Positions 10,563 to 57,834 of a DNA stretch of 64,000 nt are shown here, piece by piece. The translations under genes and the position numbers were made by a program. How positions within the stretch are numbered: position 1 is the first letter of the stretch; the number at the start of each line of letters is the position of its first letter. The notes under the pieces are model-generated. The model saw nothing but the letters and a program-made list of their open reading frames with translations, was not told the origin of the DNA and ran no database searches. This stretch comes from Melioribacteraceae bacterium (GTDB lineage: Bacteria; Bacteroidota; Ignavibacteria; Ignavibacteriales; Melioribacteraceae), in contig JAIPBD010000019.1 of assembly GCA_021739765.1 (NCBI GenBank), positions 16,242-80,241 on the forward strand, given 5' to 3'.

Positions 10563-10573
10563 GACTCCTACTA

Positions 10574-27199: not shown

Positions 27200-27310
27200 A
27201 AAATCCTTAAGAGATTAATATTCATAAACTATTTTGACGAGCAAGTCACAAAATTGTTTACTTAACACACAAAAAGATTAGATTTTAAATTAGATTAATG
27301 AACAGTCTTA

Positions 27311-30300
27311 TTATTTTAAATATATCACCTTTATTACTTCCGAAAAGTTTCTGCTTGAAGCTTCGGCTTTCGCAATAACTTTAATGAAAAAAACACCGCT
27401 TGAAACACCCTCAGGTTGCCATGATGTTTCATAATATCCTTTATCCAAATTCTCCGATAAAAGTTGTCGGATTTCTTCACCAAGAGAGTTATAAACGATT
27501 ATAGAAACATTGCTTTCTTCGGGAATCGAATAACGAATTCTGGTTTCGGGATTAAACGGATTAGGAAAGTTTTGACTCACTCTAAAGTCGGTAATTTCAA
27601 CCGATTCTTCTCCATCTACATCTGTGTAAAGTGTATTTCTTTCTCCCGGCGTTCCGTGACCCGGTGACGCCGACCAACTGTTTGGGTTAGAATTATCACT
27701 ACTTGGGTCATCCAATTCCAGCGTTGGGCCGTTTCCGTCCGCATCTGTTGGCCAGGGCGCACTATCTCTATAGGTAAGCGAATCAATTAGGAATCCATCG
27801 GATGAGTATAAAAAGATTGATTCTCCACTTCCGCTTAATCCGCTTGCCATATTAAAAAACAAATTTTCTATCCCCGTAAATCGAGATGCGAATTTTTGCT
27901 GCTCCCTGCAAATAATAAGATATGCCCCCACATCTAAATACGTTCCTTCAGGTAAAACAAAAGAGGGCTCATTGTTTTCATCCATAAAAACCCAATCGGA
28001 TAGGGATGTCCGACCATCACTATTATTAAGAATTTCAATCCAATCTTCCGTATCAAAAAGCGCGGAAGAATTATAGTTGATTTCATTTATTACGACTTTA
28101 GACCCCGACTGGCCTTTAAAGTAATATGCGCCGAGATCTCTCACTTGAGATTCCGGCGACGCTTTGCCAAGGCTTAAGGAATTAGCCTGAAGAAAATAAT
28201 TGTTCCCTCCCGGATTAATAAAACCCGGAGCACCCGATAAATTATTAGAGCCGGTTAGTGTTCTGGTGTCTGATATAGAATAAGATACCGTGCCTGAAGA
28301 CTTGCCATCTACTGTAAAATCAGTATCCGTAGAGTTATAAAAAATTGAGTTGATTACATTTAGTTCAGCCCCACCATGTCCTACCGTTTTCTCATAAACG
28401 GCCGCTGCAGCTTCATTGTTTGCGAATGTAACGTGATCAATTTCAGCAACCGAAAAACTATCCTTAACACCCACACCAATAAGACAGTCTTGAATTAAAG
28501 AGAATTCGATTTTTACTTCTGACCCCTGTCCGATTGATACACCTTTATCTCCACATATTCTAATTATGTTATTTGAAATTAAAACGTTTTGGCTAGCTTC
28601 GCCAATATCGATTCCATCGCTGTTTGATCCGGTAAAATTTTCAATCAAATTATTATTAATTGTACCCGAAAGAACATAATCAAGATCGATTCCATCCGTA
28701 TCAAAGTTGTTGTTTCCAAGAAATTTGGAATTCGAAATCGTCGCAGTCCCACCTTTACTATTTATATAATCTCCGATTTCCGATACATTTCTGAACTCAC
28801 AATAATCAACAATAAGGTTCGAGTTCTTCGCAAATATCGGAATACCGACATCTGCAATGAGCGAGTTGCTAATCGTAACAATGCTGTTTTTTAAGGATAT
28901 TGCCGCAAAATAATCATCACTCCCTTCCACACCGCCGGCATTTTTTATAATTACATTATCCAATACCGAGCTAGAAGCTGAGTTGGAAAAAATTATTGAG
29001 CCCCAGTTTTCGTCTTCATTAACAGAATGAAAATTGATTTTATCTTCTTCTGTTCCGGTTGCGATAAGCTGACCGGTCACAATAATTGAATAGTTTGGAG
29101 AAATAATTACCTCCACACCTCTTTCAATTTTGAGCACTCCTGTTTCGGTAACCGTGATATTTTGGGTTACATAGTATGGTGATTTGTCTTTTGTCAAAGT
29201 TAGATTGCCGGAAATTGTACCGGGAAGTTCAGAAATATCTATTTTAGAAAAATTGGCAATGATTTCGGTGTTTCCCGTAAGAGTAACGCTTACCGAGTCG
29301 GCAGTTCCCAATACAACCGACTGCCCTGTGGATGACTGATTGCTCGCAATCAATTCAAGATCGAAACTTATATCACTGCTTCCTCCATCCACCTGGTGTA
29401 TTTCAACAGCAACCAGGTTAGTCCCATTCGTTAAAATTGATTGATCAACATTAAATTCAAAAAAGAAATCTTCGTCGGAACCTCCAACCGTCTCTGAGGC
29501 ATTTGTCTCATATCCGACAACTCCCGTCGGCATATTCGATCTGACAACTTCAACCCCATTTAAATAGATAATGGCTCCATCGTCACGTTGAACTTTTATT
29601 GACAAAGACTCTATATCAGAAATATCAGATATGTTAAACGTCTTTCTAAAATAGTACGCGCTGTATTTATCCGATGAATTAGATCCGTAATCTAAAACCG
29701 TACTTTCATCACCTTCACCATAACCGAACTTGGCTGATCCCGAACTCCAACCCGAATCATCAAAATCGATTCCTTTCCAATCACCAACCGGCGCCTGGTC
29801 TTGGTTAAAATATTTCCAATTTGCACCATGCTCTATCAATAGAGTATTACTGGTTGTTGAGCTAATTGACGACCAATTATCAAACTTATATCCGGGTGGA
29901 ACCATCGCCTTCAAGTTGATCGGAAATCCCGCAAAATATTTTAACACCGAGGGTGCGGTATATTTAAAATCACTGATATAAATTGATGGTGCGTCAAGAC
30001 CCACCGAGCTTAGCGCGAGCTCAAGCGTTCCATCAGTTTCAAAGAAATCTCCAAGTATTCTTAAAGCATTATTCGGTCTTTCGTTTGCGAAAGTCTTCAA
30101 ACCCTCAATATTATTCCTCCAAGCCGACATCGACTGAATCCCCCTCTCAATTCCCCATTCTTTAATTGAAAGACTATCTATATAAGTACTCCACTTTGAA
30201 ATGTGGTTTGGCATTTCACTTTCTAATAACTGGCTAACGCTATCAATAATTGCAACCACACGATCTGAGTTAAATGTATCGTTAATATGGTTCGCATAAC

Positions 30301-31999: not shown

Positions 32000-32466
32000 A
32001 AAAACAATATAATAAATGCTTAAAAATATCTTTTGAATTACTGTGAAAATGTGATATAGATCCAATCACGATTTTGAAATTAACCAAATTTTTTTCATTT
32101 ACTCTTAAAACTAAACTAAAATTAAAGTGGTTTTAGAGAAAAAATAAGTGTTAATAGGATGTTGATAATTTACAAACAAAGTGTGCATAAATGGATAATT
32201 GTAGACGAGTTCAAAGTAAGTCATATTTGTACACATTTTACCCACAATAATCCGTACCGGAATCGTTCGATTTCGAATCAGAATCGGATGATAATTAGGT
32301 TATCAACATATTAACGCCCTTATTACTATTACATATTTTTAAAATATATCATATGATTAATACAATAGAGTGTTGATAAGATAAAAGACTATCAGATGCC
32401 TGATTTAAATTGATAAAAGAGGGCTTTTTTCGTATATTTTGAGGTTCAAAAAAGGAGCAAATCAAT
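32000..32466. other. Candidate oriC / DnaA-box cluster upstream of dnaN
   Basis: A 467-bp AT-rich spacer with no gene. DnaA-box-like 9-mers: TGTTGATAA 32160-32168, TGTGCATAA 32182-32190 (perfect TTATNCACA reversed), TTACCCACA 32238-32246 (one mismatch), TTATCAACA 32300-32308 and TGTTGATAA 32371-32379. An AT-rich stretch (32309-32370) lies beside the last boxes and could be the unwinding element. AAGGAG at 32453 is the ribosome site for dnaN. Box density and position support an origin, but a GC-skew test was not possible. Confidence 0.6.
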
Positions 32467-33597
32467 ATGGAATTTAAGGTAAACAGTAAAGAATTTGAAA
32501 GGCTTTTAACAAAAATTATCCCGGCCGTACCTTCCCGAACTCCAATGCAAATTCTTGAAAATTTTCTGATCGAAATCAAAGACGGGCAGCTGACTGTTTT
32601 TGCAACCGACTTGGAAATATCACTTAAATCTTCATTAAATATTGTTGCCGATTCCAATGCTTCATTCGTTGTTCCCGCAAAATTGCTTTACGATGTTGTT
32701 CGTTCGTTGGGCGAAACTACACTAAATATTAAGGTTGAAGAAAAAGGCAAATTACAACTAACAACCGATAGTGGTGAGTATTCACTTAGTTACCTTGACT
32801 CAAGCGACTTTCCAGAAATACCTTCTTTTCCGGGCGACACCGTAGACCAAGAAGACTTAAAAGAAATAAGTATAAATGGCGAAGAATTAAATACTGCGTT
32901 TTTATATACTTCCTTTGCGATGAGCAAAGAAGAAATGCGCCCGGCTATGATGGGAACACTTTTTGAATTTATCGAAGAAGGATTAAGATTCGTTGCTACC
33001 GATGGTCATAGATTGGTAAACATGTTAAATACAAATATTAAACATGAAATTACCGAACAATACATTATTCCGGAAAGAGCAATATCCGTTCTTCATAAAG
33101 TACTTGATGAAAAAGATGTTAAAATATATTTAAGTAAATCCCATGTTTCTTTTGTTCTGAGTGATATTGAATTAATTACCAGATTAATCGGTCAAAGATA
33201 TCCCGACTACAAAACGGTAATTCCAATGGAAAATGAATTTTTACTTCATGTAAAAACAAAGGATTTACACAACGCCGTTAAACGAATGATGCTATTCTCG
33301 ACCAGTAACACACGAAGAGTAAAATTCAGTATTGATGGTGATAATTTAGAAATTTCAGCTGAGGATCTTGATATTGGTGCTTCCGGTAAGGAAAGCATAC
33401 ATTGTACTTACGAAGGCGATCCTCTTACAATTGGATTTAACTCAGCTTATGTAAATGATATTCTTAGTCACATTAGAGCCGAAGAAATTATACTTAAGCT
33501 CCATTCACCGACTAAGGCAGTTATTGTTGAACCTAAAGATAATAAGGATAATCTCGACTTAATGATGCTGCTGATGCCGGTTCGATTAAATAATTGA
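32467..33597 (+). CDS. dnaN: DNA polymerase III beta sliding clamp
   Basis: A 376-residue protein with the three repeated clamp domains. Recognisable stretches are MEFKVNSKEFERLLTKIIPAVP, FVVPAKLLYDVVRSL, GTLFEFIEEGLRFVATDGHRLV and the C-terminal LMMLLMPVRLNN (the family ends in MPMRL). It tethers polymerase III to DNA. It is the first gene of dnaN-recF-dciA-gyrB-gyrA, and recF starts one base after its TGA stop. Confidence 0.96.
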   Translation: MEFKVNSKEFERLLTKIIPAVPSRTPMQILENFLIEIKDGQLTVFATDLEISLKSSLNIVADSNASFVVPAKLLYDVVRSLGETTLNIKVEEKGKLQLTTDSGEYSLSYLDSSDFPEIPSFPGDTVDQEDLKEISINGEELNTAFLYTSFAMSKEEMRPAMMGTLFEFIEEGLRFVATDGHRLVNMLNTNIKHEITEQYIIPERAISVLHKVLDEKDVKIYLSKSHVSFVLSDIELITRLIGQRYPDYKTVIPMENEFLLHVKTKDLHNAVKRMMLFSTSNTRRVKFSIDGDNLEISAEDLDIGASGKESIHCTYEGDPLTIGFNSAYVNDILSHIRAEEIILKLHSPTKAVIVEPKDNKDNLDLMMLLMPVRLNN

Positions 33598-33598
33598 G

Positions 33599-34714
33599 AT
33601 GACCCTGAATAAACTTTTTCTGACTAATTTTAGGCTGCATGAGAATACAACTTTAGAATTCTCAAATAACCTAAACTATATAGTAGGTGGCAACGGACAA
33701 GGAAAGACATCTATTTTAGAGGCTATTTACTATCTCTGTACCACCAGAAATATCAGCCAATCATCAGACCAAGAAGCTGTTACTTTTTCAAAAAAATATT
33801 TTGAGTTGAACGGGAATTTTAAAGATTTGACGACTAACAAAACTAAAGTTTTTTACGATAATGAATCTAATCGCAAAAACTATTTTTTAGATGATAAACA
33901 AATCTACAGAGCCTCATCGATTATTGGAAAATTTCCCGTGGTTACTTTAACTCCATCCGATCATTCTATTACAATGGGATCGCCTGCTGATCGAAGAAAA
34001 TTTATTGATTCTGTTATTTCTCAATCAAGCGATACTTATTTAAAAATATTGATGGAGTATAACAAAACAATTAAACAAAGGTCATCGCTTTTGAGTCAAT
34101 TAAAAGATCACAGAAGCGCCGGTCTTTTACAAGAACTTGATGCTTGGGATTTAATGCTGGCAAAGAATGGCGCGGAAATAATTAGACACAGAATTAATTT
34201 TTTAAATGATTTTGAATTATTCGTTAAAGAAGCATATCATAATCTGATGGAAGAAGTTGAAGTTCCGGAGATTTTTTACTCGACAATTCAGATTAGTGAT
34301 TTTTCTAAAATTGAAGAAGATATTCTTTCAGCCCTCGAAAAAAGACGGAAGGATGAACTAATCCGGGGAACTAATTTAGTAGGCCCCCATCGGGATGATT
34401 TTGTTTTTAGTATAAACGGATTGGAGTTAAAAAAATTTGGAAGTCAGGGACAACACAAAACATTTCAAATTGCTTTACGCTTTGGCCAATTTTTCTTTAT
34501 GAATGAGAGGCTGGGACGAAAACCAATTTTTTTGATGGATGACGTATTCGGAGAGTTGGATACTTACCGCGCAAATAAAATCAGCGAGTATCTTAAAGAT
34601 ATCGGACAAGCTTTTATTACGATGACAGACTTCTCAAATGTAGCAAATCTTAGTATTAACGAAACAGATAGAATGATAAATGTTCATGGAGGAGTGGCGG
34701 AATATGTTTCATAA
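33599..34714 (+). CDS. recF: DNA replication and repair protein RecF
   Basis: A 371-residue SMC-like ATPase. Walker A is GGNGQGKTSILEAIYYLC near residue 31, the signature region is FGSQGQHKTFQIALRF, and Walker B is FLMDDVFGELD. RecF helps load RecA at gaps through RecOR. Its 3' end overlaps the DUF721 gene start by 11 bases. Confidence 0.95.
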   Translation: MTLNKLFLTNFRLHENTTLEFSNNLNYIVGGNGQGKTSILEAIYYLCTTRNISQSSDQEAVTFSKKYFELNGNFKDLTTNKTKVFYDNESNRKNYFLDDKQIYRASSIIGKFPVVTLTPSDHSITMGSPADRRKFIDSVISQSSDTYLKILMEYNKTIKQRSSLLSQLKDHRSAGLLQELDAWDLMLAKNGAEIIRHRINFLNDFELFVKEAYHNLMEEVEVPEIFYSTIQISDFSKIEEDILSALEKRRKDELIRGTNLVGPHRDDFVFSINGLELKKFGSQGQHKTFQIALRFGQFFFMNERLGRKPIFLMDDVFGELDTYRANKISEYLKDIGQAFITMTDFSNVANLSINETDRMINVHGGVAEYVS

Positions 34715-34991
34715 ATTCAGCGCGATCTCAGATTTGGTTACTAAAGATGAACATTTTGCAAGCGTAAGAAGAGCAGCTGATGAGTATGAAGCGGTAAATC
34801 AATTTTTGAAAATCTTTCCGGAATTTAAAAATGCCGTAAAGCCTGTAAAGGTAAAAAATGGTGTTCTTTTTTTGAGTGTCGATAACTCAATTTTGAGGAA
34901 CGAAATACAAATACAAAAAACTGAGTTTATTAAAAAAATAAACAAAAGTCTAAATAGTGAAATTATAAAATCAATTAAATTTGTGATGTAA
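34704..34991 (+). CDS. DUF721 (DciA-like) protein
   Basis: 95 residues from ATG 34704, chosen because GGAGG lies 11 bases upstream; a longer start at 34680 would add eight residues inside recF. The C-terminal half (VKVKNGVLFLSVDNSILRNEIQIQKTEFIKKIN) matches the DUF721 core. The family includes DciA, a predicted loader of the replicative helicase DnaB in bacteria without DnaC. The location between recF and gyrB agrees with a replication role. Confidence 0.82.
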   Translation: MFHKFSAISDLVTKDEHFASVRRAADEYEAVNQFLKIFPEFKNAVKPVKVKNGVLFLSVDNSILRNEIQIQKTEFIKKINKSLNSEIIKSIKFVM

Positions 34992-36947
<1,956 letters not shown>

Positions 36948-36959
36948 TTAGGTGACTTT

Positions 36960-39413
36960 ATGGCAACTATTTTTGAAAAAATAACCCCGGTTTCTTTAGA
37001 AGATGAGATGAAATCATCTTACATCGATTATGCGATGTCCGTTATTGTTTCCAGAGCATTACCCGATGTTAGGGATGGCTTAAAACCGGTACATAGAAGA
37101 GTTCTTTTCGGAATGAGTGAACTCGGTATGACTTACAACAAAGCTTATAAAAAATGCGCCAGAATCGTTGGTGAGGTTCTTGGTAAATATCATCCGCACG
37201 GAGATACAGCCGTTTACGATTCGATGGTGAGAATGGTACAGGATTTTTCACTCCGTTATCCTTTAATTGATGGACAAGGGAACTTCGGATCTGTGGATGG
37301 TGACTCAGCTGCGGCGATGAGATACACAGAAGCGCGGATGCAAAGAATTACTGAAGAAATGCTTCGTGATCTTGATAAAAACACCGTTGATTTTGCACCC
37401 AACTTTGATGATTCGCTTCAAGAACCAACCGTTCTTCCGGCCTATCTTCCAAACCTTTTGATTAACGGGGCGAGTGGAATTGCCGTAGGTATGGCCACAA
37501 ACATTCCACCGCACAATATCACGGAAGTGATAAACGGCTTGGTTGAATTTATCGATAATCCAAATATGACAGTCGCGGACTTGATGCGTCATGTAACCGC
37601 TCCGGATTTTCCGACTGCCGGAATAATTTACGGTTACAACGGCGTCAGAGACGCATATGAAACCGGTCGTGGAAAAATAAACGTCCGTGCTAAAGCAAAT
37701 ATTGAAACTCACAAAAACGATCGGGAAAGTATCGTTATTACTGAAATTCCCTTTCAAGTTAACAAAGCTAACCTGATCGAAAAAATGGCCGATCTTGTTC
37801 GAGCGGGAAAAATTAACGACATATCAAATATTCGCGATGAATCTGATAAAGATGGATTAAGAATAGTTGTTGAGTTAAAAAGAGACGCTCAACCGGCGGT
37901 AATTTTAAACCAGTTGTTTATGCATACACAAATGTCGGTTACATTTGGCGTGATAATGCTTGCACTTGTTAATGGCGCTCCTCAAGTGTTAACTCTAAAA
38001 GAAGTTATGCATCATTTCTTAGTTCATAGAATGGATGTTCTTGTTAAAAGGACAAAGTTTGAATTAGATGCCGCAGAAAGAAGAGCACACATTTTAGAAG
38101 GTTACATAATCGCTCTTGATAACATCGACGAAGTGATTGAAACAATCAAAAAATCGAAGGATGTTGAAACAGCGAAGAATAACTTAATCGCAAGATTCAA
38201 ACTTTCTGAAATTCAGGCCAAAGCAATTCTGGATATGAGATTGCAAAGACTGACCGGACTTGAAAGACAAAAGATAGAAGATGAATACAAAGAAACAATT
38301 AAGCTGATTGCGAAACTTCAGGGAATTTTGGAAAGCGAAACCAAAAGAAATACAATCATTAAGGAAGAGCTTCTCGCAATTAAAGAGCGTTACGGAGATG
38401 AAAGGAGAACTTTAGTTATTCACGATACTCAAGAGTTTTCGCTGGAAGACGTAATTGCTGAAGAAGACGTTGTGGTAACAATTTCGCACAGAGGATTTAT
38501 TAAAAGATTCCCTGTAAGCGGATATCGAAAGCAAGCAAGAGGTGGAAGAGGCGTTGCTGGAGCCGGAACGAAAGATGAAGATTTCATCGAACATATGTTT
38601 ATTGCTTCCACGCATCAATACATTATGTTCTTCACGGATAAAGGAAAAGTCTATTGGCTTAAAGTGCACGAACTTCCTGAAGGTGGAAGGGCTACACGCG
38701 GACGATCAATTCTTAATTTGATTCAAAAAGAAAAGGATGAAAGAATTACCGCGTTTGTAAATGTTAAGGAATTTTCCGAAGATAGATACCTTGTTATGAT
38801 CACTGAAAACGGAACGGTTAAGAAAACTGTTCTTTCAGCATACTCAAATGTTCGTAAAGGCGGAATCAACGCGATCAATTTGGTTGAAGGAGATAGTTTA
38901 ATCGAAGTTCTTCTTAGTGAAGGAAACAACGATGTTGTTATCGGAACCCGCAATGGAATGGCGATTCGTTTCCACGAAACAGACGTTCGGGATATGGGAA
39001 GAACATCAACCGGTGTAAGAGGTATTAAACTTGCCAAAGATGATATTGTAATAGGCGCGATTGTTATTAAAAAAGCTTCAAACTTACTTGTTGTTACCGA
39101 TAAGGGATATGGTAAACGTTCCGATCTTAAAGATTACAGAATAACAAAACGTGGCGGCAAGGGTATTATCACTATCAAAACCGGTGAGAAAATTGGTAAA
39201 ATGATAGCAATGATGGAAGTTGCAGATGCCGATGAATTGGTAATTATAAGCACCGGCGGAATCGTTATTCGTCAAGGTGTAAAAGCTCTTAGAGTTATGG
39301 GTCGAAATACTCAAGGCGTCAGACTTGTCAGACTTGATGAAGGAGACTCGATCGCTGACATAGCAAGAGTTGTTCCCGAAGATGATGTAGAAGTAATAGA
39401 ACAGAATATATAA
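36960..39413 (+). CDS. gyrA: DNA gyrase subunit A
   Basis: An 817-residue protein. The catalytic tyrosine lies in [10 protein letters not shown]. The quinolone region reads [15 protein letters not shown]: the E. coli Ser83 position is threonine and Asp87 is kept. The GyrA box of the wrapping domain appears as QARGGRG, so this is gyrase and not topoisomerase IV. The C-terminal pinwheel repeats follow, and a terminator lies just after the gene. No parC/parE pair is in the window. Confidence 0.97.
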
Positions 39414-48283: not shown

Positions 48284-48979
48284 TTACTTCATACTTGGTA
48301 TTTCATAACCAAATTTGTCAATTTCGTATTTATATATTTTTTTAACATAAGCCAATGATCTTTTCGTGTACAATGATTCAATAGTTGTGTTTGGGCGTCG
48401 AACATCTGATTTAAACTTCGGAATATTTTTCGGCTCAAAAGGGAGCGACAGTTTTTCGCAAATTCTTTCGATTTCCGCTTCCAAGTTTTCATAACGAATT
48501 ACATCGTCAAGACAAAACTCACCATCAATTAAGTACTTATTTCTGTCAATAGAGGGTTGATGAACAAGAACATATTCAAACTTGCGTTTTTCTTCCGATG
48601 TAAATGGGTTTTTGAAACGACGTTTGATTTTTTCAGAGAGAGGTCGTTCCAAATTTTTTCCGGCATATTCATAATGTGAAATACACCTCTCAAAGGGGTT
48701 CCTAATTGAACAAAATTTGAAATAACTGTTCCAAATTTCATCTCCAAGCTGTTCTTTAATTTGGAATGCGGCCATGTGATTCCACCACTTAACCTTTTCC
48801 GGCAACAGCTTTCCACGAAATCCCACAATACCGGTTTCCGATTCGTATTCATCCCTCTCGTGTGACCGGGTAAACTCACCATCGGGCAAACAAAATCGTT
48901 CGAAATAATATTCGATACTGGTTCCGCCTGTTTTGGCGGTTTTTGTGTAGATAAATTTGTGCTTATGGCTAACTAACAT
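48284..48979 (-). CDS. Sulfotransferase-family protein (paralogue A)
   Basis: A 231-residue protein with a PAPS 5'-phosphosulfate-binding loop KTAKTGGTSIE (residues 13-23) and a 3'-phosphate-binding motif RNPFERCISHY (93-103), the layout of the carbohydrate sulfotransferase 2 family. These enzymes move sulfate from PAPS to sugar hydroxyls. It is last of a run of five reverse-strand sulfotransferase-like genes. The preceding gene product is a close paralogue, with a 13-base gap between them. No PAPS-synthesis gene is in the window. Confidence 0.8.
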   Translation of the reverse strand: MLVSHKHKFIYTKTAKTGGTSIEYYFERFCLPDGEFTRSHERDEYESETGIVGFRGKLLPEKVKWWNHMAAFQIKEQLGDEIWNSYFKFCSIRNPFERCISHYEYAGKNLERPLSEKIKRRFKNPFTSEEKRKFEYVLVHQPSIDRNKYLIDGEFCLDDVIRYENLEAEIERICEKLSLPFEPKNIPKFKSDVRRPNTTIESLYTKRSLAYVKKIYKYEIDKFGYEIPSMK

Positions 48980-48992
48980 TTACCTTATTCTC

Positions 48993-49676
48993 TTAAGCTT
49001 TGTATCCGAACTTTTCGAATTCGTATGCAAAAAGCTCGCGCACCAAATCAATCGATTCTTGTGTATAAAAATATTCAATATTTGCAATTTTTCTTCGGTT
49101 TTTGGATTTAAAGCTTGGAATGTACTCGGGTTCGAAAGGGATCGAGAGAATGTTGCAAACTCGCTCTATTTCCGAGTTCATCTTTTCATAACGTATAAAG
49201 TCGTCCAAGCAAAATTCTCCGTCAATTAAGTACATTTCGCTATCTAATATTATTCGCTGTTTAATAAGGTTTATAAATTGAATTTGTTCATATGTGTAGT
49301 TGGGGTGCTTTATTAAAAGCAAAAGGTTTTGAATAAGAGAAGTCTTTTTGCTTTTTCGCATAAACTCATAATGAGAAATACATTTTTCGAATGGATTCCG
49401 AATTGAACAGAACTTAAAGTAATTGTTCCAAATCTCCTCGCCGAGACTCTCCTTAATCTTTTTTGCGGGCATGTGACCCCACCATTTACAATTCGCAGGA
49501 ACAGAGGGTCCCCGATATCCAATAATTCCGGCATCCGACTCGTACTCATTCCTTAAATGTCGTTGTTTAAATTCGCCTTCATGCATGCAAAATCTTTCAA
49601 AATATGACTCGATGCTTGTCCCGCCGGTTTTTCGGGTTTTGGTGTAAATAAACTTGTATCTGTGGCTTACTAACAT
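48993..49676 (-). CDS. Sulfotransferase-family protein (paralogue B)
   Basis: 227 residues from ATG 49676 (MLVSHRYKFIYTK), chosen because both sister genes start with the same words; a longer frame begins inside the upstream gene. It has PAPS-loop KTRKTGGTSIE and RNPFEKCISHY. It shares the FCLDDFIRYE and NILSIPFEPEYIPSFKS blocks with the flanking paralogues. It is preceded by ACTAAGGAA, a possible ribosome site conserved in the tandem set. Confidence 0.8.
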   Translation of the reverse strand: MLVSHRYKFIYTKTRKTGGTSIESYFERFCMHEGEFKQRHLRNEYESDAGIIGYRGPSVPANCKWWGHMPAKKIKESLGEEIWNNYFKFCSIRNPFEKCISHYEFMRKSKKTSLIQNLLLLIKHPNYTYEQIQFINLIKQRIILDSEMYLIDGEFCLDDFIRYEKMNSEIERVCNILSIPFEPEYIPSFKSKNRRKIANIEYFYTQESIDLVRELFAYEFEKFGYKA

Positions 49677-49689
49677 TTCCTTAGTTCTC

Positions 49690-50370
49690 TTAAGTCTTGT
49701 ATCCGAACTTTTCGAATTCGTATGCAAACATTGTGCGAACCAAATCAATAGATTTTTGAGTGTATAGTTTGTCAACCGTTGCTTTCGGTCGCCGGAATTC
49801 AGATTTAAAGGTTGGAATATACTCGGGCTCAAATGGAATAGAAAGAATCTTGCAGATTCGTTCAATATCTGAGTTCAAATTTTCAAATCGAATGTAATCG
49901 TCTAAACAAAACTCTCCATCAATCAAATATTTGTTTCGATCAACCATTCTCCCCCGCTTCAGAATTATGAGAAACTGTCTTTGTTCATTTGTATATGTCG
50001 GATATCTCAAAAAAGCTTTCAAGTTCTCAGTTAGGGAAATTTTCTTTTTCTTTCCCAGATGCTCAAAATAAGAGATACATTTTTCATATGGATTTCTGAT
50101 TGAACAAAACTTGAAGTAACTGTTCCAAATCTCATCACCAAGATTCTCTTTAATGTTTTTGGCAGGCATATGATTCCACCATTTTGATTCTTTCGAACCG
50201 AGTCGCCGGCGTCCTACAATGCCAACTTCAGATTCATATTCTTCCCGATAATGTAATTGTTGAAACTCGCCATCGTGCATGCAAAACCTTTCGAAATAAG
50301 ACTCAATGCTCGTGCCGGCTGTTTTTAACGTTTTCGTATATATAAACTTGTATTTGTGACTAACCAGCAT
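49690..50370 (-). CDS. Sulfotransferase-family protein (paralogue C)
   Basis: A 226-residue protein, with PAPS-loop KTLKTAGTSIE (the second glycine of the loop is alanine) and RNPYEKCISYFE, where the terminal HY is replaced by YF. Residues elsewhere match paralogues A and B. The differences near the co-substrate site suggest divergence in donor or acceptor use. Its start overlaps the end of the 50360 gene by 11 bases. Confidence 0.78.
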   Translation of the reverse strand: MLVSHKYKFIYTKTLKTAGTSIESYFERFCMHDGEFQQLHYREEYESEVGIVGRRRLGSKESKWWNHMPAKNIKENLGDEIWNSYFKFCSIRNPYEKCISYFEHLGKKKKISLTENLKAFLRYPTYTNEQRQFLIILKRGRMVDRNKYLIDGEFCLDDYIRFENLNSDIERICKILSIPFEPEYIPTFKSEFRRPKATVDKLYTQKSIDLVRTMFAYEFEKFGYKT

Positions 50371-51157
50371 GACTCATCTGATCTTTATATCCCAAATTTT
50401 TCATCGTTTCAGTAACGTTTAATTCGATTCTTTTTAAATTTTTTGCAGAGAGTTCTTTTTTCCAACTTCCAACATTACCCGATCTAAGAAGTTTTGCTCT
50501 AGTATGGTCGTTGCCGTCAAGAAAATCTTTCCTTTTTTTCTCAAAACTTTGGTTTTTTATTGCTGTTATTAAGCTCTCATCTTCTTTATCAATCCCAAGA
50601 TACTCACAGATTTTTCTTGATTCCTTTAACGGATCGGCAATTAACTCTTCGTATTTCAGGAACAAAATATCGCGGTTGATAAACCCATTTACATGCGACA
50701 TCCAAGAATCGAACTTTGACAAAATGATTTGCCCACCCTCCAAAAGAATGTTTGTCATTATGTCTTGCCGATACTGCTGTTGATCCACAAACTTATGATA
50801 TAATCTTAAACCAAAAGGTACTTTGGAACTAATTGAGTTTAGTCGGGTTTTTTCAGCGGGGAAATAAAAATAATGTGATCCGGAAACAACAATGTCACGT
50901 GGATCTCTCACAATATATATTAATTTTTCTTCGCCTTCCAAATAGTACTTTGAGAGCTGTTTAAACTCATTATAAGAATGATGGGACTTAAAACATAAAG
51001 AATCGGAGATGCGGTTTTGTCCTTCCTCGGCCTGCTCATTAGTTTGGGGCGCAAGCCAATACCCTGCAACAGGACAACCAATTATTTCCGCTGTCAGCCT
51101 AACCAGCCACGTGTTTCCGCTTTTGGGATAACCACAAATGATGATTTTTTTCTTCAC
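50360..51157 (-). CDS. Sulfotransferase (PF00685-type)
   Basis: A 265-residue protein of a different subfamily. The PAPS loop IICGYPKSGNTWLVRL is near the N-terminus, then IYIVRDPRDIVVSGSHYFYF, a strong match to the RDPRDxxxS 3'-phosphate motif. The C-terminal FLKYEELIADPLKESRKICEYLGI and RSGNVGSWKKELS (RKGxxGDWK-type) motifs complete the Sulfotransfer_1 fold. It belongs to the middle of the five-gene run, abutting 51158 and overlapping paralogue C. Confidence 0.9.
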   Translation of the reverse strand: MKKKIIICGYPKSGNTWLVRLTAEIIGCPVAGYWLAPQTNEQAEEGQNRISDSLCFKSHHSYNEFKQLSKYYLEGEEKLIYIVRDPRDIVVSGSHYFYFPAEKTRLNSISSKVPFGLRLYHKFVDQQQYRQDIMTNILLEGGQIILSKFDSWMSHVNGFINRDILFLKYEELIADPLKESRKICEYLGIDKEDESLITAIKNQSFEKKRKDFLDGNDHTRAKLLRSGNVGSWKKELSAKNLKRIELNVTETMKNLGYKDQMSHAG

Positions 51158-51952
51158 TCAAGAACTCTTAAAATGTTCTTTTAATTTTTGATAAAGGGAA
51201 ATATCAAGAAAATTTATGTCTGCAATTTTTAGTCTGACAGCTTCCGATATATCGTCCAATTTAGGTCTTTTTTCAGTTTTATTCTCGTTTGTGGTCGCAT
51301 AGGGATTCCTCAATCTTGCCATTTTCCTTAAGTTCTCTATAAAAGCAATAAGATCGTCCTGAAAGCCAACCAAGTCATATCGACTGACTATCTTTTGAAA
51401 CGCAAGTTCAACTGATTTTTCAGGATTCTTTTCCGCCTCCTCAATAGACAATCCCGTAAAATGTGTTGTATACCAGTTTCGTAACTCATCACTTAGGTCT
51501 GATGAGATATATTCCAACAGGCTGAGGTTATTCTCTGTAACTTTTTTATATAAATAATGAATTTCGGTTCTTTTAACATAATAGTAATGTGAAATTAATC
51601 TATCGACCGGTTCCCGGAATACGGTTGCTGTGAGAGTTTTAGGGTGAATGTATTCTATTAATTCATCGGCAAAATGACCTGTAACAAATCGGAAACGATA
51701 TCGCTTTTTCTGAGGGAATGATTTAAACAACTCATGGTTTTTTTCCGTGACTTGCGAAGTGTGAAAAACCATGTGTGGAAAAAGGTGAGTTTTTACATAA
51801 TTGTTAATTTCGCTTCCGGCGCATTTGGGTAGATGATCGAACAAAATTCTTTTGGGTCGATTGCGGAGAAACCAAAAGGTTTCTTTCGGTTTGTTTCGTA
51901 TAAACCAAAGTTTTTCCCGCGTACTCTCAATTCTAAATCTGGATATATCCAT
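51158..51952 (-). CDS. Sulfotransferase-family protein (Sulfotransfer_2-type)
   Basis: A 264-residue protein with loop KRILFDHLPKCAGSEINNYV, where the usual K-T/C-G-G-T/S pattern reads KCAGSE, and ATVFREPVDRLISHYYYVKR as the 3'-phosphate motif. It resembles heparan-sulfate 2-O or chondroitin-type sulfotransferases. As the first gene of the reverse run, it shares the divergent region 51953-52138 with the glycosyltransferase. The N-terminal 35 residues (WFIRNKPKETFWFLRNRPKR) contain a short internal repeat. Confidence 0.82.
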   Translation of the reverse strand: MDISRFRIESTREKLWFIRNKPKETFWFLRNRPKRILFDHLPKCAGSEINNYVKTHLFPHMVFHTSQVTEKNHELFKSFPQKKRYRFRFVTGHFADELIEYIHPKTLTATVFREPVDRLISHYYYVKRTEIHYLYKKVTENNLSLLEYISSDLSDELRNWYTTHFTGLSIEEAEKNPEKSVELAFQKIVSRYDLVGFQDDLIAFIENLRKMARLRNPYATTNENKTEKRPKLDDISEAVRLKIADINFLDISLYQKLKEHFKSS

Positions 51953-52138
51953 TGTTCTTTAAGTTAAATTTGTTGAAATGTTATTTAGTCGGTCCATCTA
52001 AAAAGGCTTGCCTTTAAATTCAACGAAATAACGAATTAAAAATTCCTATCTTCCAATCTTGAATTTATAACGAAGGTTTTGTCAATTCGTAGAACAAGGC
52101 CTCTCATAATTGAGCCAACAGCAGTAATAGAATATACA

Positions 52139-53029
52139 ATGCCGAATTTTACGAAAATTTCTATTGTTACACCCTCTTTTAATCAGTCCGATTATTTGGA
52201 GCAGACAATTAATTCTGTTCTGTCTCAAAACTACCCGAATCTTGAATACATTGTAATTGATGGTGGAAGCACAGACAACTCCGCCGAAATTATTAAAAAA
52301 TATGAAAAAGATTTAAAATATTGGGTGAGTGAAAAGGACGATGGTCACGGTCATGCGCTTAATAAAGGGTTTACTCAATCGACGGGTGAAATTATGGCTT
52401 GGCTAAATAGTGACGATAAATATACCGCATGGTCGTTTCAAGTTGTTCAAGAGATCTTTGATAAATTTCCCCATGTTAATTGGATTGTTGGTTACAACGG
52501 CTTTTGGAATAATAAGGGTTATATGACGGGCGCGAATAGAATTCCTGTTAATATTTATAACTATTTACTTGGATCAAATTTTTGGATACAGCAAGAATCT
52601 ACTTTTTGGCGAAGAAGTTTATGGGAAAAAGCCGGAGGATTTATCAGCACAGATAACGAGTTTATGGTTGATGGTGAACTTTGGAGCCGTTTTTTTCTGC
52701 ACGATGATCTCTACACGGTTGACTGCATTCTTGGAGGTTACAGATTTCATTCGAAAAATAGAGCGAATCTTAATATCAAAGCATGTCATAATGAGATGAT
52801 GAAAATTGTTTCCAAAATGAAAGACAACTCTTCAGACGAAGTAATTGATTGTTTTAACCAATATGTTATGCTTTCAAAAATTGAAAAATTTCCTTTCGGC
52901 TACAGGCTTTTAAATTCGAAATTGGGCAAAAAACACATATTCCCCGATAGATTCGAAAAGATGGCATACAAGAACATTTATTATAAAGACGAAGAATGGG
53001 TTGAACGCAGACTTCCATTTAATTGTTAA
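52139..53029 (+). CDS. Family 2 glycosyltransferase
   Basis: 296 residues from ATG 52139 (MPNFTKISIVTPSFNQ); a TTG at 52079 would add 20 residues and cannot be excluded. The GT-A domain shows SIVTPSFNQSDYLEQTINSVLSQ, IDGGSTDNS, the nucleotide-binding WLNSDDKY and the acceptor-site WRRSLWEKAGGF. It adds a sugar from a nucleotide donor to a lipid- or peptide-linked glycan. It lies between sulfotransferase genes, which supports a sulfated-glycan role. Confidence 0.9.
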   Translation: MPNFTKISIVTPSFNQSDYLEQTINSVLSQNYPNLEYIVIDGGSTDNSAEIIKKYEKDLKYWVSEKDDGHGHALNKGFTQSTGEIMAWLNSDDKYTAWSFQVVQEIFDKFPHVNWIVGYNGFWNNKGYMTGANRIPVNIYNYLLGSNFWIQQESTFWRRSLWEKAGGFISTDNEFMVDGELWSRFFLHDDLYTVDCILGGYRFHSKNRANLNIKACHNEMMKIVSKMKDNSSDEVIDCFNQYVMLSKIEKFPFGYRLLNSKLGKKHIFPDRFEKMAYKNIYYKDEEWVERRLPFNC

Positions 53030-53066
53030 ATTTTAATAAAAATTAAATCCAATTTGGATCGCTGAA

Positions 53067-53918
53067 ATGTTAAATCCACCAACGATGTTACACAACTACA
53101 AGCGAAATGTCTATTCACAGTATGGTGAAGATGGTGTATTAGAAAAAATATTTGAAATTTTACCCGAGTTAGATCGTTGGTGTGTTGAGTTTGGAGCGTG
53201 GGATGGGAGTTTTCTTTCAAATACTAAAAATCTGATAGAGTCAAAAAATTACTCGGCGGTTTTAATAGAAGGAAATGAAAAGAAATCTGCCGAATTGAAA
53301 AAACAGCACTCATCGAAAACGAATGTTTACACCATTAACAGTTATGTCGGCTTTTCTGAAAACGATTCACTTGATGAAATCTTGAGCGAAATACCTATTC
53401 CCAAAACATTCGATTTATTATCAATTGATATTGACGGAAATGATTATCATGTCTGGAAAGCTCTTAAAAAATATCACCCCAAAGTTGTTGTTATTGAATT
53501 CAATCCAACCATTCAAAACGAAGTCCGTTTTGTACAGGCGGCGGATCTGAATATAAATCAAGGCTCGAGTTTAAGATCAATTGTTGAGCTGGGCGGGGAA
53601 AAAGGATATGAGTTGGTTTTCGTATCTAAAGTTAACGCAATTTTCGTAAAGAAAGAATTTTATGGTTTATTTGAATTGGAATCGAATTCAATCGAAGAAC
53701 TTCGTCTTGATTCCGATCTGATTACGAATTTATTTGTTGGTTTTGATGGGACCGTCTTTATAGATGGTTTTGGCAAACTACCCTGGCACGGAATCGAAAT
53801 TAATCAATCCAAAATTCAAAGTTTGCCGGGGTTTCTGCGTACATTTAAATCAAATTATAATTTTATGCAAAGGAGACTTTATTCCATTTTTGAATTCGTT
53901 AAAAGTAAATCTGCTTAG
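53067..53918 (+). CDS. Rossmann-fold methyltransferase-like protein
   Basis: A 283-residue protein. After YSQYGEDGVLEKIFEI comes CVEFGAWDGSFLSNT, a motif I-like loop, then AVLIEGNEKKSAEL and LLSIDIDGNDYHVWKAL with conserved acidic residues, as in FkbM-type and related glycan-modifying methyltransferases. Substrate and activity are unproven. It follows the GT2 gene by 37 bases and precedes another methyltransferase-like gene, so it is part of the same forward operon. Confidence 0.7.
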   Translation: MLNPPTMLHNYKRNVYSQYGEDGVLEKIFEILPELDRWCVEFGAWDGSFLSNTKNLIESKNYSAVLIEGNEKKSAELKKQHSSKTNVYTINSYVGFSENDSLDEILSEIPIPKTFDLLSIDIDGNDYHVWKALKKYHPKVVVIEFNPTIQNEVRFVQAADLNINQGSSLRSIVELGGEKGYELVFVSKVNAIFVKKEFYGLFELESNSIEELRLDSDLITNLFVGFDGTVFIDGFGKLPWHGIEINQSKIQSLPGFLRTFKSNYNFMQRRLYSIFEFVKSKSA

Positions 53919-53953
53919 ATGCGAAATAAACAATTTTAATAATCGGAACTAAG

Positions 53954-54715
53954 ATGTTTAATAATAGAGTTAAAAGCAAGTTAGGAGCGGCATGGTTTTA
54001 TGCTGGGCATCCTAATCATTTAATAAAAAGATATTATGGTGAGCTGTATTTGGGCGCTAAAGATTATTTCAAAAAACCCGAATATAAAATTACATGGGGC
54101 GGACCATTTAACGGGCAAGAAATTCGGCGACAAATATTTCTTAGTATAATTGCACGCTTGGATATAAATCTGATTATTGAGACAGGAACCTTTCGGGGCG
54201 GTACAACAGAGTTTATGGCAAAAAATACTTCTTGTAAAATCATTACAGTCGAAGCCAACGAAAGTTATTATGGTTACTCTAAGTTAAGGTTTTTACTAAA
54301 TCCGCAAATAAGGATTTTTAATAATGACAGCCGGAAGTTTTTAACTAAAGTTTTGAACAAAAAAACCGTCCAAAAGAAAAGACTCTTTTTTTATCTTGAT
54401 GCACATTGGGAAGAAGATCTTCCGCTGGTAGAAGAGCTCCAGATTATTTTTCAGCGCACTCAAAACGCGACAATAATGGTAGATGATTTTCAAGTTCCCG
54501 ATGACGAGGGATATAGTTTTGACAATTATGGACCCGGAAAAAAACTTAGTTTGGAATTATTGGATGAATTGGATAACGAGAAGATTTTTATATTTTTTCC
54601 AAAACAGAGTTCAGAGTTAGAAACCGGGTTTAAGAGAGGTTCGGTTGTTCTGACTAATTCTAAAGAAACCGCGGAGAAGCTGAATTCTGTTGAAAGTTTG
54701 AGAAGTTATTCTTAA
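53954..54715 (+). CDS. Class I methyltransferase-like protein
   Basis: A 253-residue protein with LIIETGTFRGGTTEFMAK as motif I, KIITVEANESYYGYSKL as motif II, and FFYLDAHWEEDLPLVEEL followed by ATIMVDDFQVPDDEGY. This order resembles the Methyltransf_24 / cephalosporin-hydroxylase-like group often found in polysaccharide clusters. The exact reaction is unknown. It is the last gene of the three-gene forward run. Confidence 0.72.
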   Translation: MFNNRVKSKLGAAWFYAGHPNHLIKRYYGELYLGAKDYFKKPEYKITWGGPFNGQEIRRQIFLSIIARLDINLIIETGTFRGGTTEFMAKNTSCKIITVEANESYYGYSKLRFLLNPQIRIFNNDSRKFLTKVLNKKTVQKKRLFFYLDAHWEEDLPLVEELQIIFQRTQNATIMVDDFQVPDDEGYSFDNYGPGKKLSLELLDELDNEKIFIFFPKQSSELETGFKRGSVVLTNSKETAEKLNSVESLRSYS

Positions 54716-54847
54716 ATGAATCTCGAAGTTTTGGTAAACTTTCGAACTGAAGATATTCTCGACTTCGGAATCGCTGAATCTAGATTCTTTAAGTTATACA
54801 CAAAACCTACCTTCGAAATGTTTTTATAATTCATGTCTCGAAGCCAA

Positions 54848-55612
54848 TTAAAAGCGGTTATACCCAAAAGCATCGAAAATGTTATTAAACTTGACATTGA
54901 GCAACTCAATAGTTTCTGCTGTCAGTTTGTTTTTATATCCCCCGGCCTTTCCCGAACGATGATGTGAAGATGTATCCTCTTTTACTTTTGGCCTTGTGTT
55001 TTGATAAATCTGATTAATCACCGAATCTGAAATATTTAAATACTTTTTTAATCCTTCTGAAAAAACATCCCAATTATCGATCATGTCTTCGTATTTAATC
55101 ACAACACTTTTTGAGGCAAATTTTTGTAGCTCGTTAATTTTGGAAAAATCATTTATTAATTTGTCGGCGGAGAATAAAGCATAATCATCGATCGAATTCG
55201 CTTGGATAAATTCCCTTGTTCTTTTTTCTACTTTACGGATTTTTTCAACAGGACTAAAACCATGTGTAAAACCAAAAGAGTAGTACGCGGAAACGAGCAA
55301 ATCTCGAGGGTCGCGGATAAAAAAGATTGCCGTTTTGTTTTTTATAAAATCGCTTTTGGTAGTTGGTGTTACGAGCCGGTTGAAAACGGGTGTGTTTGGT
55401 TCAACGGATAGTCGGATCGGACCATAAATCTTTCCATATTTTTTGAAAGAGATTTGTTCAACAGTTTTCCCCGAGTAGATTTCACTCGCGTAATCGACAT
55501 GTTTTAATCCACCAATGTTTTTTAAGACAAAGTTTGCGAACAAAAAACTTGCGCACTTGTGGAATGTATAAAAGTAAACCGACTTCCGCGGGAACAGATT
55601 AATTAAGGACAT
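54848..55612 (-). CDS. Sulfotransferase-like protein (PF00685-type)
   Basis: A 254-residue protein. VYFYTFHKCASFLFANFVLK occupies the PAPS-loop position in a divergent form (HKCAS instead of PKSGT). AIFFIRDPRDLLVSAYYSFGF is a clear 3'-phosphate motif, and VIKYEDMIDNW and HHRSGKAGGYKNKL match the C-terminal part. The altered loop occurs in bacterial sulfotransferases of exopolysaccharide loci. It converges on the methyltransferase gene. Confidence 0.78.
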   Translation of the reverse strand: MSLINLFPRKSVYFYTFHKCASFLFANFVLKNIGGLKHVDYASEIYSGKTVEQISFKKYGKIYGPIRLSVEPNTPVFNRLVTPTTKSDFIKNKTAIFFIRDPRDLLVSAYYSFGFTHGFSPVEKIRKVEKRTREFIQANSIDDYALFSADKLINDFSKINELQKFASKSVVIKYEDMIDNWDVFSEGLKKYLNISDSVINQIYQNTRPKVKEDTSSHHRSGKAGGYKNKLTAETIELLNVKFNNIFDAFGYNRF

Positions 55613-55672: not shown

Positions 55673-56644
55673 TTATCTAAATTTCTCTGCGAGGAAATCC
55701 ATAAGTTTATCTTTCTCGATATCAACAATTTGGCGTTCCTTATTTTCCAAGTACCACATCACAATTTCCTTAGCGCCCTTCTCGAAAGAAACCTCACTCT
55801 TAAATTCCGGAGCGAGCGATTTAATTTTTGTGTTGTCGAAAATCATGCTATAAGCTTTGTCGCCAAGCAAACCCTCTCCCCATTCACGATCGTACTTTAA
55901 AATTATATCGGATGGAACATGCACAATTTTTGGAATAACGTTGATAGCTGCAGCCATCGTTTTGCAAATTTCATCCCATGTTAAATATTCATCGGAAGTT
56001 ATGTTGTAGGTTTCCCCGATTGCACTTTCGTTTCCAATTAACGCAAGAAAACCTTTTGCGAAGTCATTGGTGTGTGTCAGGGTCCAGAGCGAAGTTCCAT
56101 CCCCATGAATAATAATTGGTTTTCCGTCGATCATCCTTTTTAAGGTGGTCCAATAACCGGGCAATGGTATTTTTGTTTTATCGTAAGTGTGAGATGGTCG
56201 GACGATTGTTACCGGGAAATCTTCGGATAAGCGTTTTTCCGTTAAAAAAGATTCTCCGGCAATCTTATTTCTTGAATATTCCCAAACCGGATTCCCAAGT
56301 GGGAAATCTTCTTTTACGGGAAGCGATTTTACAGGTTTTAAGTAGGCCGATGCGGAACTGATATAAATAAATTGTTTTGTCCTGTTCCGGAATAATTCAA
56401 AATCGTTTTCAGCGTGTTCTCTGGTAAACGAAATCCAGTCAACAACCGAATCAAATTTATGATCTTCTAATAATACTTTAACTTCGTTTTGCTTTCGAAT
56501 ATCCGCTTTTATGTGTTTTGCACCATCCGGTAATTTTCTCGACTCGCCGCGATTTAGCAAAAAAACATCATATCCTTTTTCCAAACACAATTTTGTTACG
56601 GCGGAACTGATTATTCCCGTTCCCCCTATCATCAAAATTTTCAT
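55673..56644 (-). CDS. NAD-dependent epimerase/dehydratase (extended SDR)
   Basis: A 323-residue protein with MKILMIGGTGIISSAV at the N-terminus, DSVVDWISFTREHAE, YISSASAYLKP and EYSRNKIAGESFL as the tyrosine/lysine active site, then TIVRPSHTYDKTKIPLPGYW. It resembles CSP41-like and nucleotide-sugar epimerases. Its position beside the sulfotransferase island suggests sugar-nucleotide work, but the substrate is open. It is monocistronic. Confidence 0.82.
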   Translation of the reverse strand: MKILMIGGTGIISSAVTKLCLEKGYDVFLLNRGESRKLPDGAKHIKADIRKQNEVKVLLEDHKFDSVVDWISFTREHAENDFELFRNRTKQFIYISSASAYLKPVKSLPVKEDFPLGNPVWEYSRNKIAGESFLTEKRLSEDFPVTIVRPSHTYDKTKIPLPGYWTTLKRMIDGKPIIIHGDGTSLWTLTHTNDFAKGFLALIGNESAIGETYNITSDEYLTWDEICKTMAAAINVIPKIVHVPSDIILKYDREWGEGLLGDKAYSMIFDNTKIKSLAPEFKSEVSFEKGAKEIVMWYLENKERQIVDIEKDKLMDFLAEKFR

Positions 56645-56709: not shown

Positions 56710-57834
56710 TTAATTCAAAATTTCCGACATCATGTTTTCATCAAAAGCCAAATCTTCAAATGATCGATTTATAAACTTAACAGATTTAGACAACGCCTTA
56801 TATTTCAGTCTAAGCCCGTTAGAGTTAAATGGGTTGATTACAATTATCTCAACGTCCGGACTCAAATTTTTCTTCAATAGAGCTTTAATGTGAATATCGG
56901 CATCCGACATCGAATAACCACAGAAAACCAGTTTTTTGGTTGCCCTTAACTCTCGAGACGCTTCTGATAGTAATTGCGAAATAACTTGTTGGTTCAAAGA
57001 TTTCACATAGGATGGCGGCATTATTAATGTAGAGAATTCGGTTTTGTCAAGCGGACAGACATATTCATATTCTTTCATATCGGGATATGTGTAGCCTATA
57101 AATTTATCTAAATTCAAATCGATTTTTCTATCCCAAGGTGTAAGCAAAGTTTGGTTGCAGCAATTACAGTATTTCCAATTCAAACTACCGTGAAGTTTAA
57201 TAATTTTAAATGCCGTTGGATTTGCGTTGTTCTCAAAAACCGGAACTGGTTCTTTCGGGTTCACCCAATATCGAAATTGTTTTAAGTCATCTCGTTTTTC
57301 ATAATTCATTAAGTGTATACAGTAATCAATATATCCGACTTTCTTGAACATAATATCAAACGCCTGTTCCAGCAATGTATCATAGTTTAAAGTGATAATA
57401 GTTATATTGTTATTAAATAGTCTGATCACTTCCCAAAATCTGTGATAGAAAATACTATCTTCGTTCGTTTTCTCATCAACGACATAATGAATAAGTTTTA
57501 TCAGATATTCTCTAATTTCAATCAAGGAGCTGTGTGTATATTCGGCGTTTAAGCTTTCGTTTTGTTGAATGAAATAATCTAAAAATCCGAAAACGCCCTC
57601 CAATTTCGGATATTGTTTTTTTTCAACATTAAAATGAAAATTTTCGGAAATGAATTTTATAACTTTTTTCCCGATAGAAGAATTATAAATGTATTTGTTT
57701 TGTGGGTTTACGATAAGCGGAAGCAATTCGTTTTGCAACGGTACACCGTCGGGTTGTGAAGTTCCGGCTCCGAAAATAAAGACAGTGTCTCTTTCCGCGG
57801 GTTGTTGGATAAATGTAAATTGGTTGGTTTGCAT
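56710..57834 (-). CDS. SIR2-domain protein, standalone
   Basis: A 374-residue protein. The NAD site GAGTSQPDG is at residues 22-30. Also present are ITLNYDTLLEQAF (NYD 150-152), the catalytic-type KLHGSLNW (His215), a cysteine-rich CNCC (223-226) that may bind zinc, and FCGYSMSDADIHIKALLKK near the end. This is the SIR2_2 family. Related proteins in phage-defence systems (Thoeris, DSR, SIR2-HerA and others) deplete NAD+. No partner gene adjoins it, so defence is a hypothesis. Deacetylase activity is unlikely for this family. Confidence 0.85.
   Translation of the reverse strand: MQTNQFTFIQQPAERDTVFIFGAGTSQPDGVPLQNELLPLIVNPQNKYIYNSSIGKKVIKFISENFHFNVEKKQYPKLEGVFGFLDYFIQQNESLNAEYTHSSLIEIREYLIKLIHYVVDEKTNEDSIFYHRFWEVIRLFNNNITIITLNYDTLLEQAFDIMFKKVGYIDYCIHLMNYEKRDDLKQFRYWVNPKEPVPVFENNANPTAFKIIKLHGSLNWKYCNCCNQTLLTPWDRKIDLNLDKFIGYTYPDMKEYEYVCPLDKTEFSTLIMPPSYVKSLNQQVISQLLSEASRELRATKKLVFCGYSMSDADIHIKALLKKNLSPDVEIIVINPFNSNGLRLKYKALSKSVKFINRSFEDLAFDENMMSEILN

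Follow-up and report, generated by a model that had tools for sequence, protein, structure and literature searches.

Sulfated polysaccharides have been described in few bacterial groups (PMC8205485), and six bacterial genera have been counted with them (PMC11625862). In Synechocystis PCC 6803, the synechan xss cluster combines two sulfotransferases with eight glycosyltransferases (GTs) and its own Wzx, Wzy and polysaccharide co-polymerase (PCP), and its outer membrane polysaccharide export (OPX) gene lies off the cluster (PMC8205485). The sulfated capsule of Vibrio sp. KMM 8419, whose structure has been solved, is tied to a single cluster of 80 genes, among them those for an ABC transporter, three sulfotransferases, and cysN, cysD and cysC together with polysaccharide genes (PMC11641403). 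In the marine anaerobe Pontiella sulfatireligans F21, where a sulfated exopolymer was detected, a putative sulfated glycosaminoglycan cluster holds one of three putative sulfotransferases, all three listed under PF13469, with GT2/GT4 and methyltransferase genes (PMC7356697). In the present study, we analysed a stretch of 64,000 nucleotides (the window) on contig JAIPBD010000019.1 of a Melioribacteraceae bacterium, in which positions 48284-55612 carry a cluster of nine genes, six of them for sulfotransferases (the island). The island is of the same kind as these three loci. Sulfotransferases of distinct families stand beside a GT gene as in synechan, GT2 and methyltransferase genes accompany them as in Pontiella, and the genome has cysN, cysD and cysC with polysaccharide genes as in Vibrio. 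It differs in that the sulfotransferases (six) outnumber the GTs (one) and are split from the genes for export and for 3'-phosphoadenosine 5'-phosphosulfate (PAPS), which lie on another contig; this layout is comparable to the off-cluster OPX gene of synechan, whereas the Vibrio genes form a single cluster and ours are dispersed loci known from genes alone.

All nine open reading frames (ORFs) are present in the interval. The six sulfotransferase genes that the first-pass annotation had recognised were upheld, as each product exceeded the Pfam cut-off, which is 22 bits for both PF03567 and PF00685 (four PF03567 and two PF00685, ST_f marginally), and each contained a PAPS-loop motif and the 3'-phosphate motif R[NDE]Pxx...S. 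By family and motif, the six proteins are therefore predicted to be PAPS-type sulfotransferases, and their frames are all intact; in NCBIfam, no name exceeded its cut-off for any of them. ST_a to ST_e are packed closely into a single minus-strand unit whose successive gaps measure 13, 13, -11 and 0 bases. The genes for the GT2, the FkbM-type protein and the product of 53954-54715 are on the opposite strand, and ST_f is a separate minus-strand gene (Table 1). A GT2 and two methyltransferases had also been claimed. The GT2 (PF00535) and one methyltransferase (FkbM, PF05050) were found, but the product of 53954-54715 matched no Pfam or NCBIfam family over cut-off and has weak similarity to RMNT_CmcI (E 0.063) and catechol O-methyltransferase (E 0.037). 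Taken together with the findings below, we consider it likely, with a probability of about 0.7, that the organism sulfates a surface or exported glycan in the cytoplasm from PAPS, and that the island is a satellite decoration locus of that pathway.

What the sequences show directly are the gene families and motifs, the genes for PAPS supply, PAP recycling and export, and the joint occurrence of sulfotransferases and APS kinase; enzyme activity, glycan acceptor, order of steps and cooperation of the separate loci are what we infer from them. In the proposed pathway, CysD/CysN and then CysC, encoded on contig C36, would make PAPS from sulfate and ATP. The six sulfotransferases would act in the cytoplasm, where sugars on lipid-linked glycan intermediates would receive the sulfuryl group of PAPS at their hydroxyls or amines. 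The GT2 would add a sugar, the FkbM enzyme would probably O-methylate one, and CysQ would clear the by-product 3'-phosphoadenosine 5'-phosphate (PAP). Export of the finished glycan would then fall to a Wzx/Wzy/OPX-type system whose genes lie elsewhere in the genome.

PAPS-synthesis genes, whose absence had been named beforehand as evidence against sulfation, are present in the genome: CysC, CysD, CysN, a second adenosine 5'-phosphosulfate (APS) kinase and CysQ were all identified. The run on C36 holds, with other ORFs interspersed, an OPX-like gene (Poly_export, SLBB), cysC, cysD, cysN, a DUF2061-APS kinase fusion, cysQ, and genes for a Wzz-like protein, a pyruvyl transferase, a flippase-like protein and a Wzy_C protein. 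Polysaccharide export and polymerisation genes thus adjoin the PAPS genes, on a different contig from the island. Both high-scoring APS kinase genes (239 and 151 bits) are on C36, and two weak matches (about 20 bits) lie elsewhere in the genome. In a genome-wide search with PF01507 (E up to 0.001), CysD was the sole match and no CysH-type PAPS/APS reductase was found, so that PAPS has no reductive outlet visible to this search. In one relative (G211), cysC, DUF2061-cysC, cysD, cysN, cysQ and a large OPX-like gene were read by eye in one run. The APS kinases with an N-terminal DUF2061 membrane domain lie beside a normal cysC at L023:8507-9226 and L184:8177-8896, the fusion being confirmed by Pfam in the former and read by eye in the latter, and would be second, membrane-tethered APS kinases. 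Two small ORFs between the PAPS genes (L023:11055-11426 and L023:9269-9610) look like four-helix-bundle proteins of the 23S intervening-sequence type. In the window itself, genes for GDP-L-fucose synthase and GDP-mannose 4,6-dehydratase are adjacent at 9615-11665, a GDP-fucose supply for a glycan.

Table 1. Genes of the island, its right neighbour and the PAPS genes of contig C36. Coordinates are positions in the window.
Gene	Location	Strand	Assignment and score
ST_a	48284..48979	-	PF03567 sulfotransferase, 231 amino acids, KTGGTS loop; Pfam 48.3 bits
ST_b	48993..49676	-	PF03567 sulfotransferase, 227 amino acids; Pfam 37.6 bits
ST_c	49690..50370	-	PF03567 sulfotransferase, 226 amino acids, KTAGTS loop; Pfam 35.6 bits
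ST_d	50360..51157	-	PF00685 sulfotransferase, 265 amino acids; Pfam 102 bits; 11-base overlap with ST_c
ST_e	51158..51952	-	PF03567 sulfotransferase, 264 amino acids, KCAGSE loop; Pfam 31.2 bits; first gene of the minus-strand unit
GT2 glycosyltransferase	52139..53029	+	PF00535, 101 bits
FkbM-type methyltransferase	53067..53918	+	PF05050, 29.8 bits (cut-off 22.7)
Possible class I methyltransferase, family uncertain	53954..54715	+	Below every family cut-off
ST_f	54848..55612	-	Divergent PF00685 sulfotransferase, 254 amino acids; Pfam 24.3 bits (cut-off 22), marginal
NAD-dependent epimerase/dehydratase	55673..56644	-	PF01370, 91.2 bits; right neighbour, island membership uncertain
CysD	C36		NCBIfam TIGR02039, 428 bits (cut-off 397)
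CysN	C36		NCBIfam TIGR02034, 553 bits (cut-off 336)
CysC	C36		NCBIfam TIGR00455, 267 bits (cut-off 139)
DUF2061-APS kinase fusion	C36		NCBIfam TIGR00455, 150 bits (cut-off 139)
CysQ	C36		NCBIfam TIGR01331, 264 bits (cut-off 229)

Two starts in Table 1 differ from those of the listed ORFs. The ORF of ST_b opened too early, at 49865, and its start was corrected to 49676 because the paralogues ST_a and ST_c place it there. For the GT2, the ORF opens at a TTG at 52079 and translation probably begins at an ATG at 52139; positions 52133-53029 were taken for the family scan.

The genome has other sulfation-related loci. Ten further genes exceeded a sulfotransferase cut-off (four on C28, four on C33 including one PF17784, one on C1 and one on C6), which gives a total of 16, counted with PF17784 not searched genome-wide and one extra C1 match below cut-off excluded. 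The four sulfotransferases of the C28 locus are accompanied by a Polysacc_synt flippase, GTs and two FkbM proteins (one over the cut-off, one just under), and the C33 locus includes a GT61. On C28, a PF00685 gene appears to be split into two frames (G000:C28:46960-47585). Fifteen matches to the sulfatase family PF00884 (E up to 1e-10) were observed on C28, C37, C11, C1 and other contigs, three of them on C28, where sulfotransferases lie further along; sulfated glycans may be degraded as well as made by this organism.

For comparison, we surveyed 392 genomes drawn evenly from the class and 14 control genomes; up to six sulfotransferase and nine APS kinase candidates were scored per genome, and the counts are lower bounds. 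PF03567 exceeded its cut-off in at least 9 of the 392 class genomes (18 at E up to 0.01) and in none of the controls, and PF00685 in at least 34 of the 392 and in two controls. These numbers support rarity in the class; the genome studied here has more PF03567 matches than any other in the survey. The first-pass annotation had called dense clusters uncommon, and they are rare but not unique, since G195, G330 and G321 also pack three PF00685 matches apiece into about 2-4 kb. PF00685 domains were also observed in open frames of about 2100-3400 codons (G275:C21, G338:C69 and C121, G359:C337, C199 and C251), which are possibly giant multidomain glycan enzymes. APS kinase (E up to 1e-20) was found in at least 47 class genomes and six controls. 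It was present in 29 of the 39 class genomes with a sulfotransferase (28 of 38 when our own genome is excluded) against 18 of the 353 without one (Fisher p 2.8e-23, kinship ignored), and in six of the nine PF03567 genomes taken alone. In ten genomes (G214, G225, G324, G261, G312, G206, G155, G178, G103 and G132), a sulfotransferase and an APS kinase lie on the same contig within 7.1 kb, and in three of these the distance is 122-132 bases; in our own genome the two kinds of match are on different contigs. This pairing across the sampled genomes suggests that PAPS in the class often serves sulfation.

The tandem paralogues ST_a, ST_b and ST_c are 66% (ST_b/ST_c), 61% (ST_a/ST_c) and 56% (ST_a/ST_b) identical. 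A profile of these three rows found relatives at 76 loci in a scan of named genomes. Forty of these loci were tried for alignment and 39 were kept, one being dropped for an over-long frame, which together with the three window rows gave 42 rows. In the resulting tree, ST_a, ST_b and ST_c form a moderately supported group (92/87) within a clade of 12 on a long stem (100/100), whose other members are four Verrucomicrobiota, two Bacteroidota, two Cyanobacteriota and one Kiritimatiellota row. A PF03567 match (E up to 0.001) was obtained for 38 of the 42 rows, and we assign ST_a-ST_c on sequence relationship to a patchy, cross-phylum PF03567 subfamily. The 12-row profile (A3), with up to seven candidates scored per genome, matched 14 of 395 genomes of the phylum at E up to 1e-10, our own included. 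The three copies in our genome scored 355 bits and the best match among the remaining 13 reached 112 bits, so that the other 394 genomes sampled yielded no close member of the subfamily. A phage origin of the ST_c type was considered and rejected, with no match in 50,697 phage records. On six Verrucomicrobia contigs (L052, L057, L061, L066, L067 and L071), three members of the wider KTAGTS family each were observed within a few kb.

Three residues in ST_c numbering, K16 (in the PAPS loop), H67 and R92, do not vary across the 42 rows, and S100 is conserved in at least 90%. PAPS-dependent sulfotransferases have been defined by the PAPS-loop lysine and the serine of the 3'-phosphate site, and the base given for such enzymes is a histidine or a glutamate (PMC11625862); we suggest that H67 may be the catalytic base. 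The first-pass annotation had further argued from donor-site differences between the genes to several sulfation positions on one polymer. This does not follow, because all six proteins should bind PAPS and the choice of acceptor lies outside the loop; the loop differences reflect family membership, and there is no sign of a single shared polymer. A related idea is offered tentatively and is, on balance, doubtful: the three paralogues would be an old, retained expansion that diverged between the 3'-phosphate site and the conserved YxIDGxFC segment, each sulfating a different sugar position in a heavily and variably sulfated glycan, as a bacterial counterpart of glycosaminoglycan sulfation patterning.

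The surroundings of the nine closest named relatives of ST_a-ST_c (L037-L045) were compared by scanning some neighbours of each. GT2 or sugar-transferase genes lie within about 6 kb in five of the nine. In three (L038, L040 and L042) a GT2 is directly upstream, in L041 a GT2/sugar-transferase gene is within 2 kb, and in L039 an FkbM and a GT2 are within about 6 kb together with two further sulfotransferase-domain genes. In L044 an MBOAT acyltransferase gene lies at a distance of about 4 kb, and the gene adjacent to the relative in L045 (L045:1015-2826) encodes in one frame a 603-amino-acid protein with UbiA and galactose-3-O-sulfotransferase matches.

Several observations weigh against glycan sulfation as we propose it. 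Among the nine relatives, four (L037, L043, L044 and L045) showed no GT among the scanned neighbours, and two of these have housekeeping-type surroundings (stress protein, DUF3122 and TPR in L037; FtsH-like and S30AE in L043). In the class survey, no APS kinase was detected in 10 of the 39 sulfotransferase genomes, and no sulfotransferase in 18 of the genomes with an APS kinase. Against PDB sequences, the three-row profile of ST_a-ST_c found no sulfotransferase up to E 1 and the 42-row profile had its best sulfotransferase match only at E 0.024, and the closest structural relatives of ST_d are small-molecule sulfotransferases. On C36, the flippase-like protein is under its Pfam cut-off (MatE 21.5 bits against 24.9). 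The glycan as acceptor is itself a deduction from gene context and is unproven. Finally, the island has a single GT and no flippase, polymerase or exporter gene (Wzx/Wzy/export) of its own. The glycan context speaks for the claim that this locus builds or decorates a sulfated glycan, but the island's own genes do not show it to build the backbone.

The single GT and the missing polymerase would also suit another acceptor, namely a lipopolysaccharide (LPS) core or O-antigen or a glycoprotein glycan, that is, a short cell-bound oligosaccharide modified by the same chemistry in place of a free exopolysaccharide or capsule. The gene kdsB lies near the PAPS genes on C36, and similar reasoning has been used to propose a sulfated O-antigen in Vibrio KMM 8419 (PMC11641403). 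However, the OPX/Wzz/Wzy-type genes that adjoin the PAPS genes fit a polymer, and we regard such a short acceptor as possible but not probable.

The PDB matches of ST_d raise the question of small molecules or lipids, such as glycolipids or secondary metabolites, as substrates. Its best matches are cytosolic SULTs (best E 3e-17), with Teg12, Teg14 and StaL, which we take to be glycopeptide sulfotransferases, lower in the list. Sulfated lipo-oligosaccharides and glycolipids are known in rhizobia and mycobacteria (PMC8205485, PMC11625862). We consider such substrates unlikely, as no biosynthetic genes for such metabolites were seen in the island, where the GT2 and FkbM genes are neighbours, FkbM and GTs recur in the C28 locus, and polysaccharide genes lie near five of the nine close relatives of ST_a-ST_c. 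Sulfation of proteins, for example of tyrosine on exported proteins, is compatible with the motifs taken alone, but with GT and FkbM genes nearby sugars are the likelier acceptors, and we hold proteins to be the least probable of the acceptors considered. ST_d is 36% identical to a paralogue on C1 and 25% identical to ST_f, which had PDB matches at E 0.33 and above only, and the FkbM-type protein had no PDB match up to E 1. ST_e shares the PAPS loop and the 3'-phosphate motif with its best match, the heparan sulfate 2-O-sulfotransferase (PF03567), but the similarity is marginal (E 0.018) and the specificity is not transferable. Inference of sulfation positions from sequence was rejected, because the PDB matches of the sulfotransferases are too weak.

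An mnmG match was obtained in 22 relatives, and the position of the island was examined in the stretches downstream of mnmG in nine of them, three of these stretches being shorter than 20 kb. The gene rsmG follows mnmG in all nine, murQ is found in seven and a SIR2_2 gene in six, and gene content differs beyond. The nine island ORFs had no tblastn match (E up to 1e-8) in these stretches, so that the island lies where gene content varies among relatives, beside a conserved block. The SIR2_2-domain gene of the window (56710-57834) is probably not a mobile defence gene, since it is kept near murQ and rsmG in those six relatives. Homologues of the epimerase (49-63% identity) occur in eight other genomes, but it was of no use as a synteny anchor, because in the four relatives checked the homologue has none of the island's nearest flanking genes beside it; mnmG took its place. 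Recent transfer gave no signal in base composition; the island has a guanine-plus-cytosine (GC) content of 35.4%, and 53 of 240 overlapping windows of the sampled stretches are as low. Elsewhere in the window, genes at 23330-39413 read by eye as dnaA, dnaN, recF, gyrB and gyrA, and the GC skew changes near 33 kb, which probably marks the region of the replication origin, at some 15-25 kb from the island.

This position, unmatched in the relatives beside the mnmG-rsmG-murQ-SIR2 block, and the patchy distribution of the ST_a-ST_c subfamily across phyla would agree with an accumulation of transferred genes that have little joint function. Against it stand the six intact frames, the tight packing of the five-gene unit and a GC content within the spread of the sampled stretches. 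Furthermore, the paralogues differ far more at synonymous (pS 0.74-0.82, near or beyond saturation) than at non-synonymous sites (pN 0.18-0.27), which suggests ancient duplications and proteins under constraint; only one of the three pairs gave a finite dN/dS (0.06), a value that is unreliable at such saturation. We judge mere accumulation very unlikely, and the reading of the island as a decoration locus for a sulfated glycan is preferred.

In Shark Bay mat metagenomes, a sulfotransferase query restricted to PF13469 was missing from all Bacteroidetes and Verrucomicrobia genomes there (PMC9723792). Our literature searches on Ignavibacteria, Melioribacter and Chlorobi, made by title listing, surfaced no report of a sulfated polysaccharide. 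The set of genes for PAPS making, PAP recycling, export and sulfation, found in a class of which a minority of the sampled genomes hold any sulfation genes, points to a further group of sulfated-polysaccharide producers. In addition, the small PF03567 enzymes of 226-231 amino acids offer a set whose acceptors could be compared side by side.

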